Positions 620-36,435 of a DNA stretch of 41,585 nt are shown here, piece by piece. Positions within the stretch are counted from its first letter, which is position 1. Every line of letters begins with the position of its first letter. Source of the DNA: a virus; IMG/VR virus record IMGVR_UViG_3300048091_000060, positions 1 to 41,585 of that record; one strand, given 5' to 3'. A model generated the notes under the pieces. The model searched no databases. It saw nothing but the letters and a program-made list of their open reading frames with translations, and was not told the DNA's origin. A program made the translations under genes and the position numbers.

Positions 620-731
620 TTGAGGGCTACTTGGGGCTCCGCTGCATGCATGACTAGTGCACCAGTTGGGAGCCGCTTTCACCCAGGGTGCTTGGCGGGG
701 TGGCCGGTCAAGGCTTCCGTCATTGCACCAG

Positions 732-802
732 TTGCTACGGCAGGATTCGAACCTGCGCACATCGGGGCGCGACCCCTGCTCTACCGCTGAGCTACGTAGC
801 AA
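732..802 (-). tRNA. tRNA, anticodon uncertain (possibly Ala CGC)
   Basis: Acceptor arms TGCTACG and CGTAGCA, D arm GCTC-AGCGGTA-GAGC and T arm GCAGG-TTCGAAT-CCTGC are all intact. The anticodon arm is odd: GGGG/CCCC closes a loop TCGCG, leaving 20 nt where 21-22 are usual. Taking the only T as U33 gives CGC (alanine). No CCA is encoded. It may be decayed or unusually folded. Confidence 0.7.
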
Positions 803-4073: not shown

Positions 4074-4214
4074 GATCGAAAACCCCCCCAACGGGACATT
4101 GTGGCTAGGTAGGTAAGAATAGTGCTTGAGATCTCAACAACGCGCCGTGTGGAGGCTCAGGGTCCATTTGTGACCATCCCGTGAAGAAAAACAAGCACCT
4201 TGCCTCAGAGGCAC

Positions 4215-4326
4215 ATAGATGTAGTGCCCACGCATAGGATTCGGCCGGCTCGGACCAAAGATAGGTGTAGCGCCCACGCATCTACATTGACCCTGAAGAC
4301 CAAAGATAGATGTAGCGCCCATGCAT
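4215..4326. repeat. Three 21-bp direct repeats
   Basis: Copies at 4215-4235, 4261-4281 and 4306-4326 share ATAGATGTAGCGCCCACGCA with one to three changes, at a regular 45-46 bp period; copies 2 and 3 are preceded by CCAAAG. A partial inverted copy (AAAGATAGATGTAC on the minus strand) lies at about 4720-4733. Regular spacing suggests a multi-site regulator or recombination accessory sites. Confidence 0.75.
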
Positions 4327-4339
4327 CTTCCCTGAGACA

Positions 4340-4371
4340 CAAAGAAGCCCCCCGGTTTCCCAGGGGGCTTC
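4340..4371 (-). terminator. Intrinsic terminator of the 4382-4591 gene
   Basis: Minus-strand hairpin GAAGCCCCC / GGGGGCTTC followed by TTTG, just past the stop codon. Confidence 0.8.
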
Positions 4372-4381
4372 CCTTCAGTGC

Positions 4382-4591
4382 TTACATCCCGGCCCAGTAG
4401 CCGGTGCCCATCGCGCCCCAGCCCCAGGAGCGGCCAGTCTTGGTGTTCGCCGAGAGGAGCATGTCCTCGTTGCTGCGAACCTTGTGGGTGCGGATCTCGG
4501 TGCCCGTGGCGTCGAACTCGCGGACCAGGGCCCATCCCCCAGCGCCCTGCGTCTTGACGGTCACTCGGGTGATGGTGGCGTTGGCGTTCAT
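4382..4591 (-). CDS. Small early-cassette protein
   Basis: 69 residues from ATG 4591, preceded by GGGAG at 7 nt. The sequence MNANATITRVTVKTQGAGGW is beta-like, with a Gly/Trp-rich C-terminus (RSWGWGAMGTGYWAGM). No family recognised. It is a complete single-gene cassette: palindrome 4659-4680, promoter 4629-4657, leader, gene and terminator 4340-4371. The vegetative-type promoter predicts immediate early expression, repressed in a lysogen. Such phage genes often modify host functions; none is shown here. Confidence 0.8.
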   Translation of the reverse strand: MNANATITRVTVKTQGAGGWALVREFDATGTEIRTHKVRSNEDMLLSANTKTGRSWGWGAMGTGYWAGM

Positions 4592-4628
4592 TTCGTTCTC
4601 CCTTGTCGCTGTCGTGCTTACGAGTAGA

Positions 4629-4657
4629 ACTCTACACACGCTGAAGCGCCCGCGCAA
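4629..4657 (-). promoter_or_regulatory. Early promoter PE1
   Basis: Minus strand TTGCGC (4657-4652), 17 bp, TAGAGT (4634-4629). The -10 runs into TAGAGTTCTACTCGTAAG, a sequence shared with the other early promoters, containing a short dyad. Confidence 0.8.
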
Positions 4658-4658
4658 C

Positions 4659-4680
4659 CACCTACGAAAAATCGCATGTG
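4659..4680. promoter_or_regulatory. 22-bp operator-like palindrome 2
   Basis: CACCTACGA, AAAA and TCGCATGTG. One base upstream of the -35 of PE1. Confidence 0.75.
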
Positions 4681-4763
4681 ACCCGGGTCTCATCGCACCG
4701 CGTGACGTGCAGGGAACGTACATCTATCTTTGGGTCCCAGACACGGACAGAAACGGACAAATA

Positions 4764-4791
4764 GGGGCCCCAGGCGCAATGCCCGGGGCCC
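4764..4791 (-). terminator. Intrinsic terminator of the 4805-5053 gene
   Basis: Minus-strand GGGCCCCGGGC / GCCTGGGGCCC with a short loop, followed by TATTTG. Confidence 0.7.
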
Positions 4792-4804
4792 TTCAGTGAG
4801 AGGA

Positions 4805-5053
4805 TCAGGCAGCGTCGGCAGCCTTCGCGCACGTCTTGCAGAGCTTCCGCCCGCCGGTGATGCGAGCAGCCGCTACAGCCTCGGCCAGGGTCTCGAAGGA
4901 CGCTCCGGTAGCCAGGCGGGACCGGGTCATAGCACCGCACACGTTCTGGGCCCAGTTGCTGACCACGGCGCCCGACTCGTTGCCCCCGCCCGTGGTGCGA
5001 GCCTCCATGCCAGCGATGTGGTTCGTGGTCCGGTTGTACTTGATGGTGAACAT
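4805..5053 (-). CDS. Small early-cassette protein with C-terminal CxxC
   Basis: 82 residues from ATG 5053 with GGGGAG 7 nt upstream. Residues 50-66 form an Ala-rich helix (FETLAEAVAAARITG). The C-terminus carries GRKLCKTCAKAADAA, a single CxxC that might bind zinc as a dimer or be redox active. The remainder is polar. Family not recognised. It has its own promoter, palindrome half-site and terminator, like its neighbours. Confidence 0.8.
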   Translation of the reverse strand: MFTIKYNRTTNHIAGMEARTTGGGNESGAVVSNWAQNVCGAMTRSRLATGASFETLAEAVAAARITGGRKLCKTCAKAADAA

Positions 5054-5092
5054 CTGGTGTCTCCCCTGGTTCGCTGCGTCCTTACGAGTGGA

Positions 5093-5122
5093 ACTCTACA
5101 CACGGGCGAGCCCCCTGCGCAA
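5093..5122 (-). promoter_or_regulatory. Early promoter PE2
   Basis: Minus strand TTGCGC (5122-5117), 18 bp, TAGAGT (5098-5093), followed by the shared TAGAGTTCCACTCGTAAG. Confidence 0.8.
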
Positions 5123-5123
5123 C

Positions 5124-5145
5124 CACCTACGAAAAAAGAGCCCCC
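5124..5145. promoter_or_regulatory. Operator half-site 3, fused to a terminator U-tract
   Basis: CACCTACGA is intact; the mirror half is replaced by the terminator of the upstream gene, so the minus strand reads TTTTTTCGTAGGTG directly after the hairpin. Confidence 0.65.
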
Positions 5146-5165
5146 AGGGTTTCCCCCAGGGGCTC
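5132..5165 (-). terminator. Intrinsic terminator of the 5171-5479 gene
   Basis: Minus-strand GAGCCCCTGGGGG / CCCTGGGGGCTC followed by six T; the U-tract overlaps operator half-site 3. Confidence 0.85.
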
Positions 5166-5170
5166 CACTG

Positions 5171-5479
5171 TCATGCGCTGTAGGTGAATCTCACCGTGGA
5201 CCAAGACTCGCCCTCATGCTCGTACGCGGTGGCCTCAGCGGGGAAGCCCCAGGAAGCTACCTCAACGGCGATCTCAGCGGCTACCGTGGCGGCGTTGGCC
5301 CCCGTGTCCACCGTGACGCTAATACGGCGCTCAGCGGCCCGTACGAAGATTCCCTGCGCCTGGTAGCGACGGGCGGCGGGGCTGATGTTGAAGCCTGCGG
5401 CCTTGAGTCGACGGCTCACAACCGGGCCGAGGCGGAGGGACGAGCGGTTACCGCTGTTCTGGGGGCGCTTACCGGCCAT
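5171..5479 (-). CDS. Small basic early-cassette protein
   Basis: 102 residues from ATG 5479 (AAGGA 9 nt upstream). The N-terminal third is basic (MAGKRPQNSGNRSSLRLG, SRRLKAAGFNISPAARR) and might touch nucleic acid; the rest alternates beta and Ala-rich helix (ISVTVDTGANAATVAAEIAV) and ends STVRFTYSA. No family recognised. It has its own promoter (5521-5549) and terminator. Confidence 0.8.
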   Translation of the reverse strand: MAGKRPQNSGNRSSLRLGPVVSRRLKAAGFNISPAARRYQAQGIFVRAAERRISVTVDTGANAATVAAEIAVEVASWGFPAEATAYEHEGESWSTVRFTYSA

Positions 5480-5520
5480 GGTCTCGGTTCCTTTCGGGGC
5501 TCTCTGTGCTGACAAGAGGA

Positions 5521-5549
5521 ACACTAGCCGCTCCGCCCCGCAGGCACAA
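5521..5549 (-). promoter_or_regulatory. Early promoter PE3
   Basis: Minus strand TTGTGC (5549-5544), 17 bp, TAGTGT (5526-5521). Diverged from PE1, PE2 and PE4 but with the same layout. Confidence 0.7.
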
Positions 5550-5551
5550 CC

Positions 5552-5573
5552 CACCTACGAAAAAGGGCCCCCG
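5552..5573. promoter_or_regulatory. Operator half-site 4, fused to a terminator U-tract
   Basis: CACCTACGA intact; mirror half replaced by the terminator. The minus strand reads GGGCCCTTTTTCGTAGGTG. Confidence 0.6.
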
Positions 5574-5588
5574 GTCTCCCAGGGGCCC
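5560..5588 (-). terminator. Intrinsic terminator of the 5596-5964 gene
   Basis: Minus-strand GGGGCCCC and GGGGGCCC arms followed by TTTTT; overlaps operator half-site 4. Confidence 0.8.
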
Positions 5589-5595
5589 CGACTGC

Positions 5596-5964
5596 CTAGC
5601 TCATGTAGAAGTACCGGCCGTAGGACGATCCACCGTTGTGAATGTTGATGTACCTCCGGCCCCGGTCGTTGGTCACCACGCTGACTGACACCTTGTACTG
5701 CCTGGCGTTCGCGATGGCGGCGCGCATCCGGTCCGGGCCGACGATCTTAAGGCTTCCGTCATACCCGCTGCGGGTCTGGAACGTCTGCGTGTCCTTGACG
5801 ATGTCTTCCACGGTCTCTCCCTTGTCGTTGAAGGCGGTCCAGCACTTCGCGTCCGCCAGTGCCATTGCCTTAGTCAGGTAGCCGGTGGTGCGGAACGCCA
5901 CACGGCCAGCCTGGAAAACGATCCCGTAGTGCTTGCCGTTCTTCGTGGTGACCGTGATGCTCAT
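5596..5964 (-). CDS. Early-cassette protein, hypothetical
   Basis: 122 residues from ATG 5964 (GGGGAG, 5 nt). Beta-rich N-terminus (MSITVTTKNGKHYGIVFQAG), a middle helix around AMALADAKCWTAFNDKGETVED, then RMRAAIANARQYKVSVSVV and a Tyr/Gly-rich C-terminus (NGGSSYGRYFYMS). Not recognised. Carries the full cassette: palindrome 6034-6055, promoter 6002-6031 and terminator 5560-5588. Confidence 0.8.
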   Translation of the reverse strand: MSITVTTKNGKHYGIVFQAGRVAFRTTGYLTKAMALADAKCWTAFNDKGETVEDIVKDTQTFQTRSGYDGSLKIVGPDRMRAAIANARQYKVSVSVVTNDRGRRYINIHNGGSSYGRYFYMS

Positions 5965-6001
5965 GTCCGCTCCCCTGCTCGCTGTTGTGCTTACGAGTGG
6001 A

Positions 6002-6031
6002 ACTCTATGCGCATCGGGCGAGCCCGCGCAA
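6002..6031 (-). promoter_or_regulatory. Early promoter PE4
   Basis: Minus strand TTGCGC (6031-6026), 18 bp, TAGAGT (6007-6002), followed by the shared TAGAGTTCCACTCGTAAG. Confidence 0.8.
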
Positions 6032-6033
6032 GG

Positions 6034-6055
6034 CACCTACGAAAATTCGTACGCA
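6034..6055. promoter_or_regulatory. 22-bp operator-like palindrome 5
   Basis: CACCTACGA, AAAT and TCGTACGCA. Two bases upstream of the -35 of PE4. Confidence 0.8.
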
Positions 6056-6059
6056 GAAA

Positions 6060-6087
6060 GGCCCCCAGCGCCGGAGCACTAGGGGCC
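6060..6087 (-). terminator. Terminator of the 6107-6343 gene
   Basis: Minus-strand GGCCCCTAG / CTGGGGGCC followed by TTTCTG. Confidence 0.7.
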
Positions 6088-6106
6088 AAACACGGACATT
6101 TAGGGG

Positions 6107-6343
6107 TCAGCGATTGCGCTTCAGCGAGGCGAAGAACGAACCCTTGCGAACACCCTCGGGCATCGTACCCAGCGCCTCGCCGATCAACGCGCGGATCTGC
6201 TCGGCCTCACCGTGGGCGATCTTCAGAGTCTTTTGGATGCCTCCCGCAGTGACGTAGTCAATCTCAACCGATGCGTACTTAGGTCCAGCGTTCAGCCGAC
6301 CCTCAGTGATTCGGCCGATGTTCTCAACGTGACGCAGGCTCAT
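6107..6343 (-). CDS. Small hypothetical protein
   Basis: 78 residues from ATG 6343 (GAGGGAG, 5 nt). A beta segment (KYASVEIDYVTAGGIQKTLKI) is followed by a helix (GEAEQIRALIGEALGT) and a basic tail (KGSFFASLKRNR). Not recognised. A palindrome half-site lies upstream at 6385 but no promoter like PE1-PE4 is evident, so it may be read through from the dCMP deaminase operon. Confidence 0.75.
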   Translation of the reverse strand: MSLRHVENIGRITEGRLNAGPKYASVEIDYVTAGGIQKTLKIAHGEAEQIRALIGEALGTMPEGVRKGSFFASLKRNR

Positions 6344-6384: not shown

Positions 6385-6406
6385 CACCTACGAAAAAGCA
6401 AGCTTC
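6385..6406. promoter_or_regulatory. Operator half-site 6
   Basis: CACCTACGA followed by AAAAGC; the mirror half lies over the end of the dCMP deaminase gene and is not conserved. Confidence 0.5.
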
Positions 6407-7926: not shown

Positions 7927-7948
7927 CACCTACGATTTTTCGGAGGTG
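7927..7948. promoter_or_regulatory. 22-bp operator-like palindrome 7
   Basis: CACCTACGA, TTTT and TCGGAGGTG, 32 bp upstream of the thyX start, just past the stop of the preceding small gene. Confidence 0.75.
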
Positions 7949-14057: not shown

Positions 14058-14097
14058 CAGAGGCACCACCTACGAATTTTCGGAGGTGATGCCTCTG
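14058..14097 (-). promoter_or_regulatory. 40-nt hairpin built around an operator palindrome
   Basis: CAGAGGCA and TGCCTCTG extend the palindrome at 14067-14088 into a nearly complete 18-bp stem with an AT-rich tip, in the leader of the DNA polymerase gene. It could act as DNA operator, RNA hairpin or both. Confidence 0.6.
14067..14088. promoter_or_regulatory. 22-bp operator-like palindrome 9
   Basis: CACCTACGA, ATTT and TCGGAGGTG. Confidence 0.8.
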
Positions 14098-17075: not shown

Positions 17076-17097
17076 CACCTCCGAAAATTCGTATGTG
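17076..17097. promoter_or_regulatory. 22-bp operator-like palindrome 10 (contains the SD)
   Basis: CACCTCCGA, AAAT and TCGTATGTG. The minus-strand GGAGGTG is the HNH Shine-Dalgarno, 6 nt before the ATG. Confidence 0.8.
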
Positions 17098-19970: not shown

Positions 19971-20060
19971 TGACGATCTGACGAAGTGACCTGAGAACTT
20001 GGAATCTCTTAGGGTTTTCTATGTGATTCAAAAAAGTTAGTTGAGTTCGTCAGTTCGTCA
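19971..20060. repeat. 90-bp element with 15-bp inverted arms, copy 2
   Basis: Arms TGACGATCTGACGAA (19971-19985) and TTCGTCAGTTCGTCA (20046-20060), 60 bp apart as in copy 1. AACTTGGAAT lies at the same offset, and an AT-rich end with TTC and AAAAA matches copy 1. Confidence 0.8.
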
Positions 20061-20377: not shown

Positions 20378-20411
20378 AAGCCCCGGGGCACCTCCCTGCA
20401 CCCCGGGGCTT
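20378..20411 (-). terminator. Intrinsic terminator of the 20427-21419 gene
   Basis: Minus-strand AAGCCCCGGGG / CCCCGGGGCTT followed by TGTC. Confidence 0.75.
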
Positions 20412-20426
20412 ATGGCTGACGTGGTC

Positions 20427-21419
20427 CTACAGCGTGGCGGCGATCATCTTCTTAATGGCCTCGTAGAGCTCTTCCAGCTCGGTGCGGATGGACTCCTTGG
20501 TCTCGTCGCTCGCTGCCTCGAAGTCTTCCGGCGTGGCCTTGATGAAGTCGGTGCGTACGCGCTTCACGAACGACTGCACACGCTCGTCCGGGGTGAGGTC
20601 CGCCCCTGACTCGATCTCGTGGCGCATCGGGTTCGGGTCGCCCAGCTCCTTGCGCTGCTGGTAACGCTCGCGGTTCAACTCTCCGTGACCCTTCAACTGC
20701 GCACCGTAAAGATCAGCGATGTACTCGGACACGGTGACATCTTCGGGCTTGGCTTCCAGCGCCTTCGCGTAGCGCTTCTGCTCCTCGGGGTCGTTCTCCA
20801 GCTCGCGCAGGTACTTGGCGCGGACGTCAGAGCGGTGGGACTGGACGGAGCGCCTGAGCTTGTCGAGAGCCTGCTCGTTGTCGTAGTTGTGCTCGAACCC
20901 GTCCCCAGCCTTGGCGTACAGCGCACGGGCCGCCTCCTTCGCAGCGTGGCTGTTACCGAGGATGTCAGGGTTGCCATCCTTGTTGGGGATGCGACGCCAC
21001 ATGTCCAGAACGATCGCCGCAACATCCTTGGCGAGATCGCTGGTCTTGACGTGGAGCTTGACACCCTCGGCGACGCGCTCGGCACCGTCGCTGATGAGCT
21101 CGGTTACGCCCTGGTAGACGCTGTAATCCTTGGGGTCGATGGCAGGCTCCTTGGGCTCCGCCTTCGCTACGGCCTTACCCTTGGGCTTGTCCTCGGTCAG
21201 CGCCTTCGCCACAGCGCGCCACGCGTCCCGTCGATCCTTCTTGAACTTGGTCCACGTCTGGTCATCCGGAGCCTTGCCACGACCAGGCAGCGAGCTGATG
21301 AGCGTCTCAGTCTCCTTGTCAAGCTCGGCCAGTCCCTCGGCGTTCTCAGCTTCCACCAGGGAGGCAGCTCGCTCGATGTTCGCGTTGATCTGCTCGATGG
21401 TGTTCTCTACGTCCGACAT
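20427..21419 (-). CDS. Large early protein of unknown function
   Basis: 330 residues, charged and almost wholly helical: Glu/Ala/Lys-rich N-terminus (MSDVENTIEQINANIERAAS, with ELDKETETLISSLPGRGK), a Lys/Pro/Ala linker at about 80-95, and a helical C-terminal half (LDKLRRSVQSHRSDVRAKYL). No Cys, no enzymatic motif seen. It is driven by the best early promoter of the window (TTGACA, 17 bp, TAGAGT) with an adjacent operator, so it should be highly expressed early and silent in a lysogen. I do not recognise the family. Confidence 0.85.
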   Translation of the reverse strand: MSDVENTIEQINANIERAASLVEAENAEGLAELDKETETLISSLPGRGKAPDDQTWTKFKKDRRDAWRAVAKALTEDKPKGKAVAKAEPKEPAIDPKDYSVYQGVTELISDGAERVAEGVKLHVKTSDLAKDVAAIVLDMWRRIPNKDGNPDILGNSHAAKEAARALYAKAGDGFEHNYDNEQALDKLRRSVQSHRSDVRAKYLRELENDPEEQKRYAKALEAKPEDVTVSEYIADLYGAQLKGHGELNRERYQQRKELGDPNPMRHEIESGADLTPDERVQSFVKRVRTDFIKATPEDFEAASDETKESIRTELEELYEAIKKMIAATL

Positions 21420-21454
21420 GGCGTCCCCTTCGCTGTGTTGACCTTACGAGTGAA

Positions 21455-21483
21455 ACTCTAGCCATGCCCTGATGGCGTGTCAA
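21455..21483 (-). promoter_or_regulatory. Early promoter PE5 (near consensus)
   Basis: Minus strand TTGACA (21483-21478), 17 bp, TAGAGT (21460-21455), followed by the shared TAGAGTTTCACTCGTAAG. Confidence 0.88.
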
Positions 21484-21485
21484 AC

Positions 21486-21507
21486 CACTTGCGAAAAATC
21501 GTAGGCG
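21486..21507. promoter_or_regulatory. 22-bp operator-like palindrome 11
   Basis: CACTTGCGA, AAAA and TCGTAGGCG. Two bases upstream of the PE5 -35, between the promoter and the preceding terminator. Confidence 0.75.
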
Positions 21508-21514
21508 CCAACGC

Positions 21515-21558
21515 GAAAACCCCCCGGACTTCGCCTAGTTGGCGGAGCCCAGGGGGTC
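21515..21558 (-). terminator. Intrinsic terminator of the dNMP kinase gene
   Basis: Minus-strand GACCCCCTGGGCTCCGCC and GGCGAAGTCCGGGGGGT followed by TTTTC. Confidence 0.75.
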
Positions 21559-23482: not shown

Positions 23483-23504
23483 CACCTACGATTTTTCGGA
23501 TGTG
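23483..23504. promoter_or_regulatory. 22-bp operator-like palindrome 12
   Basis: CACCTACGA, TTTT and TCGGATGTG. Directly beside the hairpin and 2 bp past the stop of the 23506-23868 gene; no promoter is evident, so a stoperator-type role is possible. Confidence 0.75.
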
Positions 23505-32317: not shown

Positions 32318-32339
32318 CACCTACGAATTTTCGTGGGTG
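32318..32339. promoter_or_regulatory. 22-bp operator-like palindrome 13 (in the virion operon)
   Basis: CACCTACGA, ATTT and TCGTGGGTG, nearly perfect. It lies 21 bp before the tail tube start, inside the late operon, with no recognisable promoter: a stoperator-like position. Confidence 0.85.
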
Positions 32340-34615: not shown

Positions 34616-34811
34616 TCTTAGCCGCCTTACTCTGCCGGGGTGCCCGCTTACGCGCAGGCTTAGGGGCCGGGGTTACATCCGCCACCGGCTCGGGAATGTC
34701 GCGTGGATCAGGGACGACCTTGTAACCGCGAGAGCCGTCCCCGACAAGCGAATAAATCTGCTCATCGGGGACGACAATCACAAGGCCGTTAGGACCCTGT
34801 ACAGCGATCAC
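34608..34811 (-). CDS. Small basic protein after the capsid gene
   Basis: 67 residues from GTG 34811, which overlaps the capsid stop as TAGTG. N-terminal beta hairpin (MIAVQGPNGLVIVVPDEQIY), then Pro-rich and Lys/Arg-rich tail (PAPKPARKRAPRQSKAAKSE). Such short basic proteins after the capsid gene are common in actinophages; function unknown. Confidence 0.7.
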   Translation of the reverse strand: MIAVQGPNGLVIVVPDEQIYSLVGDGSRGYKVVPDPRDIPEPVADVTPAPKPARKRAPRQSKAAKSE

Positions 34812-35701
34812 TAGGCGATCGTGACATCCACGTCACAGACTGCCAGCGCCTCACCGCGAACAACCTTCGCGCCGTACAGATGGAGACCCTTAATCGCGTC
34901 CGAGAACGCCGACTCAGGACGGTACGCCTCAACCTTGCTGATCTGCTCAGCGAACGTGGTAGCCATCGAGTGACCAGCAACCACGAAGTTGGAGAACTCA
35001 CCCATGGCCGGAGGGGTCGCCGCAGTTCCAGCAGTACCCTGCGGGATGTTGTTGGAGACGATGACCGCGAATCCGAGGACGCGGCCAACCTCACCGTTCT
35101 GAATCGGCGAAGTAGAGCCGTACTGCGCAGCGTCGATAAAGCGCTGGTCCGAAAGGAGAACGGCGTAGAAGTCCGGGGAGACTAGGAGAAAGCGGCCGTC
35201 CTGCGGAACGTTCTGCTTGTCAAGCAGGAGCTTGAGCTTAAGAACAACGGCGTAGGCGCCGCCCGGGGTTGCAGTGCTGACATCCGTGGCCGGGACGATG
35301 TTGGTCGCGCCGGTCGTCATCTTGGTAAGCAGGAACGTGTCGGTGGCCTCGGCCAGACCATACGCGGCCTGCTGAGCAGCGCGAGTCATCAGAACGCCAC
35401 CATCGCGAACCTGACGCGCGTCCACGTCGTCGACCTCAAACGCGAAATACTTGGCCTGGTCAACCACTAGCGTCTGATCAGTCGTAGACAGAGTCTGCGG
35501 GTTGATGACGGTCGTGTTCTTGACGTAGTCAGAGATAGTCGGGTTGGACAGCGAACCGATGTGGACGGTGTCGCCAAAGTTGGCGATCTCGCCCTCGTAA
35601 TTGCGGTTAGTCACACCGGACTGACCAGCAACTAGCGTCTTGTCCAGCGCGGTTAGAAGCTCAGCGGCCCAAACCTTGGGAATGAAGAGATCAACGGCCA
35701 T
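34811..35701 (-). CDS. Major capsid protein
   Basis: 296 residues. MAVDLFIPKVWAAELLTALD, with GDTVHIGSLSNPTISDYVKN and FAFEVDDVDARQVRDGGVLM, matches the P22 coat/HK97-fold capsid group found in actinophages; it ends VRGEALAVCDVDVTIA. Its position directly after a scaffold gene supports it. No N-terminal delta domain, consistent with a separate scaffold. ATG 35701 is preceded by GAAAGG at 9 nt. Confidence 0.95.
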   Translation of the reverse strand: MAVDLFIPKVWAAELLTALDKTLVAGQSGVTNRNYEGEIANFGDTVHIGSLSNPTISDYVKNTTVINPQTLSTTDQTLVVDQAKYFAFEVDDVDARQVRDGGVLMTRAAQQAAYGLAEATDTFLLTKMTTGATNIVPATDVSTATPGGAYAVVLKLKLLLDKQNVPQDGRFLLVSPDFYAVLLSDQRFIDAAQYGSTSPIQNGEVGRVLGFAVIVSNNIPQGTAGTAATPPAMGEFSNFVVAGHSMATTFAEQISKVEAYRPESAFSDAIKGLHLYGAKVVRGEALAVCDVDVTIA

Positions 35702-36413: not shown

Positions 36414-36435
36414 CACCTGCGAAATTTCGTAGGTG
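36414..36435. promoter_or_regulatory. 22-bp operator-like palindrome 14 (before the scaffold gene)
   Basis: CACCTGCGA, AATT and TCGTAGGTG, between the MuF-like and scaffold genes. No clear promoter accompanies it. Confidence 0.85.

Follow-up and report, generated by a model that had tools for sequence, protein, structure and literature searches.

A row of one-gene cassettes with the control region of immunity repressor c in a phiC31-like Streptomyces phage

Results

The DNA analysed here, referred to below as the window, is the whole of the IMG/VR virus record IMGVR_UViG_3300048091_000060 (41,585 bp) and belongs to a phiC31-like Streptomyces phage. At 4382–5964 it carries a row of four adjoining small genes, each of which has its own operator, promoter, leader and hairpin terminator, and we call such a unit a cassette. 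The genes encode proteins of 69, 82, 102 and 122 amino acids (aa) and, like the immunity repressor gene c, whose control region has the same design, the whole cassette region lies on the minus strand.

The 122-aa gene (MSITVTTKNGKHYG.., 5596–5964) stands behind the operator palindrome CGTACGAATTTTCGTAGG (6034–6055) and a TTGCGC-18-TAGAGT promoter with the leader TAGAGTTCCACTCGTAAG (6002–6031), and is closed by a terminator hairpin at 5564–5589. The 102-aa gene (MAGKRPQNSGNR.., 5171–5479; terminator at 5137–5166) has a TTGTGC-17-TAGTGT promoter with a divergent leader (5521–5549) and an operator half-site at 5552–5560. The 82-aa gene (MFTIKYNRTTNHIAG..C..CKTC, 4805–5053; terminator at 4765–4791) has a TTGCGC-18-TAGAGT promoter, again with the leader TAGAGTTCCACTCGTAAG (5093–5122), and the operator half-site TCGTAGGTG at 5124–5132. 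The 69-aa gene (MNANATITRV.., 4382–4591), recognised by the leader and Shine-Dalgarno sequence (SD) at its ATG, its homologues and its ratio of nonsynonymous to synonymous substitution (dN/dS), follows the operator palindrome CACATGCGATTTTTCGTAGGTG (4659–4680) and a TTGCGC-17-TAGAGT promoter with the leader TAGAGTTCTACTCGTAAG (4629–4657); its terminator hairpin, with a T-run, is at 4344–4371. An earlier note on this DNA had described four consecutive units of palindrome, promoter, shared leader, small gene and terminator. The four units are where it placed them; however, two of the operators are half-sites and one of the leaders is divergent. Its statement that the U-tract of one unit twice overlaps the operator of the next was confirmed at 5124 and 5552. 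Both of these are half-sites of the form TTTTTCGTAGGTG, in which a terminator stem replaces the left arm and its U-tract supplies the T-run. The same fusion of U-tract and half-site was seen in relatives, in L065 (half-site GGTAGGTG, of another operator class) and at the repressor gene of G006.

The promoter TTGYGC-N17/18-TAGWGT occurs four times in the 41.6 kb, always on the minus strand and always at a cassette (−10 boxes starting at 6007, 5526, 5098 and 4634); in 300 shuffled sequences the mean was 0.02 copies and the maximum one. In each of the four, CGTAGG lies 3–4 bp upstream of the −35 box. A generic sigma70 scan found no promoter here, as TTGCGC and TAGAGT fall outside its filter; the TAGAGT or TAGTGT −10 boxes and TTG-type −35 boxes fit the consensus of the Streptomyces principal sigma factor. 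Three of the four units, and that of c (21460), contain the leader core TAGAGTnnnACTCGTAAG unchanged; the unit with its −10 box at 5526 has TAGTGTTCCTCTTGTCAG instead. A search of bacterial genomes with the leader gave 32 matches, none of them in Streptomyces, and the four contexts inspected had no operators. Given these contexts and the size of the database, we take the matches to be due to chance.

The earlier note had also listed a fifth, stronger unit at 20427–21507, as though it were one more small-gene cassette. Its gene is in fact c, at 20427–21419, which encodes a 330-aa immunity repressor consisting of the core alone, with no cysteine (PF25746, E = 1.8e-68; PHROG 19947; tblastn matches to the Rowa and phiBT1 repressors). 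For c, promoter and leader (TTGACA-17-TAGAGT, TAGAGTTTCACTCGTAAG) occupy 21443–21483, and its operator (CGCCTACGATTTTTCGCAAGTG, presumed to be an autoregulatory site) is at 21486–21507, with 33 bp from half-site to −10 box. One terminator hairpin precedes the unit (21519–21557) and another follows the gene (20378–20411). Since the fifth unit is c, the control region that the cassettes have in common is that of the immunity repressor; in the relatives, too, c has the operator, promoter, leader and preceding terminator of a cassette.

Full palindromes of the form CACCTACGAnnnnTCGTAGGTG number 10 in the genome, each matching at least 19 of 22 positions, a score that never exceeded 17 in shuffled sequences. 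Three of them serve the units described so far, those of the 122-aa gene (6034), the 69-aa gene (4659) and c (21486). The other seven lie in further intergenic gaps without a cassette promoter: upstream of thyX (7927–7948), the DNA polymerase gene (14067–14088) and an HNH gene (17076–17097), and at 517–538, 23483–23504, 32318–32339 and 36414–36435. In every cassette and in c, the operator touches the −35 region. Across phages, the distance from half-site to −10 box was 32–34 bp in 54 of 55 units, in a scan that itself restricted this distance to about 20–40 bp.

Compared with phiC31 (Lomovskayavirus), the phage has the same kind of repressor (PF25746) and the same arrangement of palindromes, 10–16 near-identical copies that lie between genes and have CCTAC..GTAGG arms, one of them upstream of c. 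The palindrome of the window is evidently this phage's version of the phiC31 conserved inverted repeat (CIR). In phiC31 there are 16 copies of CCTACTCACGTGAGTAGG-type sites, one of which corresponds to CIR8, a repressor-binding site according to the annotation of X91149. The phiC31 records give the CIRs as repressor binding sites; for the window, binding by c is predicted, from this annotation and from the concordance of operator and repressor described below. The operator core differs, CG.AATT.CG in phiC31 and CTCACGTGAG in the window, and the phiC31 operator TACTCACGTGAGTA, with 16 copies in phiC31, has none in the window. To judge from the sites, the window thus represents another immunity class of the phiC31-type CIR/c system. 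Further differences are that the phiC31 operator is near the −10 box, while that of the window abuts the −35 box; that the phiC31 repressor (683 aa) has two H-C-CxxC modules, while c of the window is the core alone, a feature that varies within the family; and that the row of cassettes resembling the c unit belongs to the window. The internal CIR of phiC31 c lies 1 bp before a TAGAGT box, ahead of the internal start MATKKLKLKDVRG. Besides this CIR within c, we noted in phiC31 (L132; 19773 and 34781–34838) a hairpin resembling a terminator downstream of gene 21; one CIR forms its tip and another follows immediately.

Among the 19 genomes compared, the operators fall into sharply distinct classes, of which there are at least five, with common TAC...GTA outer bases and differing cores. 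Class A (TACGAWWWWTCGTA), to which the window belongs, has 6–10 copies per genome, class B (TACTCACGTGAGTA) 14–16, class C (TACTCWTTTCAGTA) 11–13, class D (TACTGAATTCAGTA) 17 and class E (TACGCACGTGCGTA) 13. A genome of one of these classes has 6–17 copies of its own operator and none of the others, except for one stray in G030. Other operators were found in 4 of the 19 genomes, and two more were seen once each, TACCAAAATTGGTA in L009 and TACGGATTTCCGTA in L112.

The same cassette families stand behind operators of classes A, C and D, and in every genome that holds both, the class of the cassettes is that of c. As several class A contigs are near-identical, the independent cases are fewer than the units counted. 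When the 82-aa and 69-aa units of G000 or G010 (class A) are set against those of G008 (class C), the genes are 91–96% and the leaders 92–98% identical, as against 57–65% for the operators and about 40% for the repressor cores. In the 69-aa unit of the window and of G008, conserved flanks enclose a class A operator in the one and a class C operator in the other. The order of the units also varies, 69 aa before 82 aa in G008 and 82 before 69 in G000, G003 and G010, and so do the sets of cassettes downstream of the dCMP deaminase gene and thyX, which are variably present between conserved genes. The earlier idea of a plug-in set of genes under the immunity repressor is in this respect well founded, as other phages carry the same leaders and genes in a different order and selection, every cassette having the operator class of its own genome. 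The pattern points to an exchange of cassettes between immunity groups, after which selection would have favoured a matching operator.

All four cassette genes are under purifying selection (dN/dS 0.12–0.46 for the 69-aa family, 0.06–0.65 for the 82-aa, 0.15–0.35 for the 102-aa and 0.08–0.79 for the 122-aa family). Searches of the small proteins against Pfam, PHROGs and PDB sequences gave no convincing match and no named family. The 69-aa protein falls in PHROG 32368, to which no function is assigned; it has homologues in classes A, C and D and in G015, and tblastn against phages gave no match for it. The 122-aa family is modular, its N-terminal ~48 aa recurring joined to other C-termini, among them that of phiC31 gp32 (ORF6), which is annotated as 'transcribed in lysogens' and 'expressed in uninduced lysogens' and has the repressor site CIR8 just upstream. 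An AlphaFold2 model of the 122-aa protein was usable (predicted local distance difference test, pLDDT, 81), yet it had no PDB match (best E 0.11).

The 82-aa protein has the invariant potential metal ligands H12, C39, C72 and C75 (H..C..CxxC) and is 54% identical to residues 1–85 of the 554-aa repressor of G023 (2e-26). It is homologous as well to the N-termini of three further repressors, those of G006 (421 aa, from a genome with the operator class of the window), G022 and Shawty (gp22). The Shawty and G022 repressors align with phiC31 c only from about residue 64–81 onward: another module has taken the place of the first. Among the remaining repressors, most have H-C-CxxC modules of other kinds, and those that consist of the core only (the window, G001–G004 and G017) have no cysteine. 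In L009, a gene for the 82-aa module is directly upstream of c. By homology, then, the 82-aa protein represents in free form an interchangeable H..C..CxxC module that is found at the N-terminus of phiC31-type repressors. Its AlphaFold2 model was poor (pLDDT 57). In L089, L228 (G016), L259 (G027), L262 (Dryad gp100), G013 and G030, which include an unrelated 69-kb Streptomyces phage, the module also stands at the head of larger proteins, from 180 to about 480 aa, that continue into other C-terminal domains.

Discussion

We consider it probable that the cassettes form, together with c, a repressor regulon of autonomous, exchangeable one-gene units built on the control region of c itself. Each unit comprises a promoter of the host-sigma type (TTGCGC...TAGAGT), a predicted operator for c abutting the −35 box, the common leader and its own terminator. 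As the promoters fit the principal-sigma consensus, the units are expected to be active immediately upon infection: before c has accumulated, all of them, and c, would be expressed together in an immediate-early burst. Rising c would then bind the operators and clamp both the cassettes and its own gene, in a negative feedback. In the lysogen, a low, c-like expression would remain, and the units with half-sites would be leakier. Units have passed between phages of different immunity type, and each operator would have been refitted to the resident repressor.

Several observations weigh against this interpretation. The operator is centred some 48 bp before the presumed start, next to the −35 box and not across it; repression by occlusion is plausible from there, and activation is possible too. 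Two of the units have half-sites only. The phiC31 CIRs at the internal c promoter and at gp32 are 1–5 bp from the −10 box, as against about 27 bp here, so the phiC31 mechanism cannot simply be carried over. Finally, the concordance between operator and repressor classes is in part a matter of shared ancestry.

An extension of the interpretation, speculative but possible, is that the cassettes make up a pool of accessory modules of the repressor, which is shuffled. The free 82-aa H-C-CxxC module, made from a c-type promoter, would act in trans on the core repressor. The c gene of phiC31 yields three nested isoforms that differ at their N-termini; these long and nested forms could be fused cassettes, and the internal CIR, TAGAGT box and start could be what remains of a second boundary between cassettes. 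The same module exists in nature fused to the repressor, adjacent to it and free, and this offers a direct handle on how the phiC31 repressor uses its N-terminal extensions.

Some of the same features could be read in terms of lysogeny. The cassettes would then be expressed mainly from the prophage, with c beside the −35 box stimulating or tolerating the promoters, and their products would change or protect the lysogen. Single genes that have their own promoter and terminator and lie between phage genes are known from the lambdoid phages as morons, and the cassettes share this build. The control region of c is also the same, and c must be on in lysogens; a weak −35 box (TTGCGC) with an operator directly upstream recalls the position of an activator site; and phiC31 gp32, the relative of the 122-aa N-terminal part, is lysogen-transcribed by annotation with CIR8 upstream. 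However, an operator centred near −48 does not match the classical class II position; the similarity to gp32 extends over 37 residues only, and the CIR of gp32 is placed differently relative to the −10 box. The operator of c is expected to be autorepressive, which also speaks against this explanation, and we regard it as rather unlikely. The cassettes further differ from lambdoid morons in that their promoter carries the immunity operator, the same in all units and in c.

The earlier note had seen the cassettes as host-takeover genes, every one of which has to be silent in a lysogen. Classical immediate-early genes of this type, fully silenced in the prophage, would fit small, fast-exchanging genes that are under the immunity repressor, lie close to where the early region ends and have the promoter type of c. 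Complete shut-off is nevertheless too strong a claim: c has the same operator, promoter and leader and must run in the lysogen, so this design cannot mean full silence of the cassettes, and gp32 is annotated as transcribed in uninduced lysogens despite its upstream CIR8. The half-site operators, too, make complete silencing less likely. As to function, no named Pfam or PHROGs family was matched, and two of the families have links to immunity or lysogeny, the 82-aa protein as a repressor module and the 122-aa protein through gp32. Since the 82-aa protein and c-type repressors have a module in common, host takeover is no likelier than a role in immunity; the products are more probably accessory factors in immunity or early infection, and a dedicated, silenced takeover set seems unlikely.

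The cassettes might instead be mobile DNA elements bordered by a 27-bp repeat, their regulation being incidental. This element, CCAAAGATAGRTGTANCGCCCAYGCAT, is present in three tandem copies (4209–4326, plus strand) after the last cassette and in an inverted copy before it (4707–4733, minus strand), and it was found in 19 IMG/VR stretches of the cassette-bearing phage group, in gaps between cassettes. In the window and in several relatives, across operator classes, it faces inward on either side of single cassettes. Yet some cassettes are unbordered, none has a recombinase of its own, and the single-strand folding of the element is no better than that of shuffled sequences. Mobility of this kind is improbable as an account of the row, the element being a possible border of exchange or a possible site of a second regulator. 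That the genes are artefacts, spurious open reading frames behind repeated intergenic DNA, might be suspected from their very short length and general lack of database names, and is refuted by the purifying selection, the conserved SD and ATG, the recurrence across phages and the shuffling of promoters and operators.

Parts of the regulon have precedents. Among them is the phiC31 CIR/c system itself, and operators that track their repressor have been published for cluster A mycobacteriophages, whose repressor sites are genome-wide and mostly intergenic, with a consensus that follows the repressor from one immunity group to another (PMC6550527). The window has this distribution in common with the cluster A stoperators, which differ in being asymmetric, 13–14 bp long and bound by a monomer (PMC6550527), while the window sites are palindromic and five of them lie within standardised promoters of single-gene units. 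The stoperators of actinophage R4, as described in work cited in PMC10276819, are likewise sites across the genome. Heteroimmune lambdoid phages such as lambda and 434 (PMC6550527) also have homologous circuits with different operator specificity; here, in contrast, single cassettes would cross immunity classes and be refitted one by one. In the literature searched, outside which most subscription papers lie, c-type control regions are nowhere described as serving many small genes as a standard socket; nor did we find operators refitted one cassette at a time, or N-terminal modules of repressors with a homologue among cassette genes. The immunity of a temperate phage may thus act as such a socket, in which any small gene can be placed behind the control region of the repressor with the operator retuned to the resident one. 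The relatives also provide a natural series of matched repressor/operator pairs, in at least five classes, several of them with identical promoter surroundings.

Beyond the cassettes, the gene set matches that of the phiC31 group, with a serine integrase, ribonucleotide reductase, ThyX, dCMP deaminase, DNA polymerase, primase and a dNMP kinase adjoining the repressor, and the nearest deposited phages have single genes only in common with it, at ~70–78% DNA identity. The row is headed by a small gene of 78 aa (6107–6343, minus strand) that has its own terminator (6060–6087) and a half-site (6385–6393) and is without the shared promoter and leader. Near the integrase gene are those for tRNA-Leu (TAG) and tRNA-Arg (GCG), at 537–619 and 731–801 (minus strand). 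The sequence GCTAACCGACNCGACAG has eight copies in the window, on the minus strand (1371, 8362, 11805, 14153, 16636, 19078, 19967 and 22175), often 20–70 bp upstream of genes of replication or nucleotide metabolism; it is also present eight times in each of G001, G006 and G010, is absent from phiC31 and may mark a second class of promoter or leader used by the main early genes. Positions 1381–1470 and 19971–20060 form a direct repeat of 90 bp (70% identity) whose inverted ends are TGACGAACTGACGAA...TTCGTCAGTTCATCA, a possible recombination-related or regulatory sequence.

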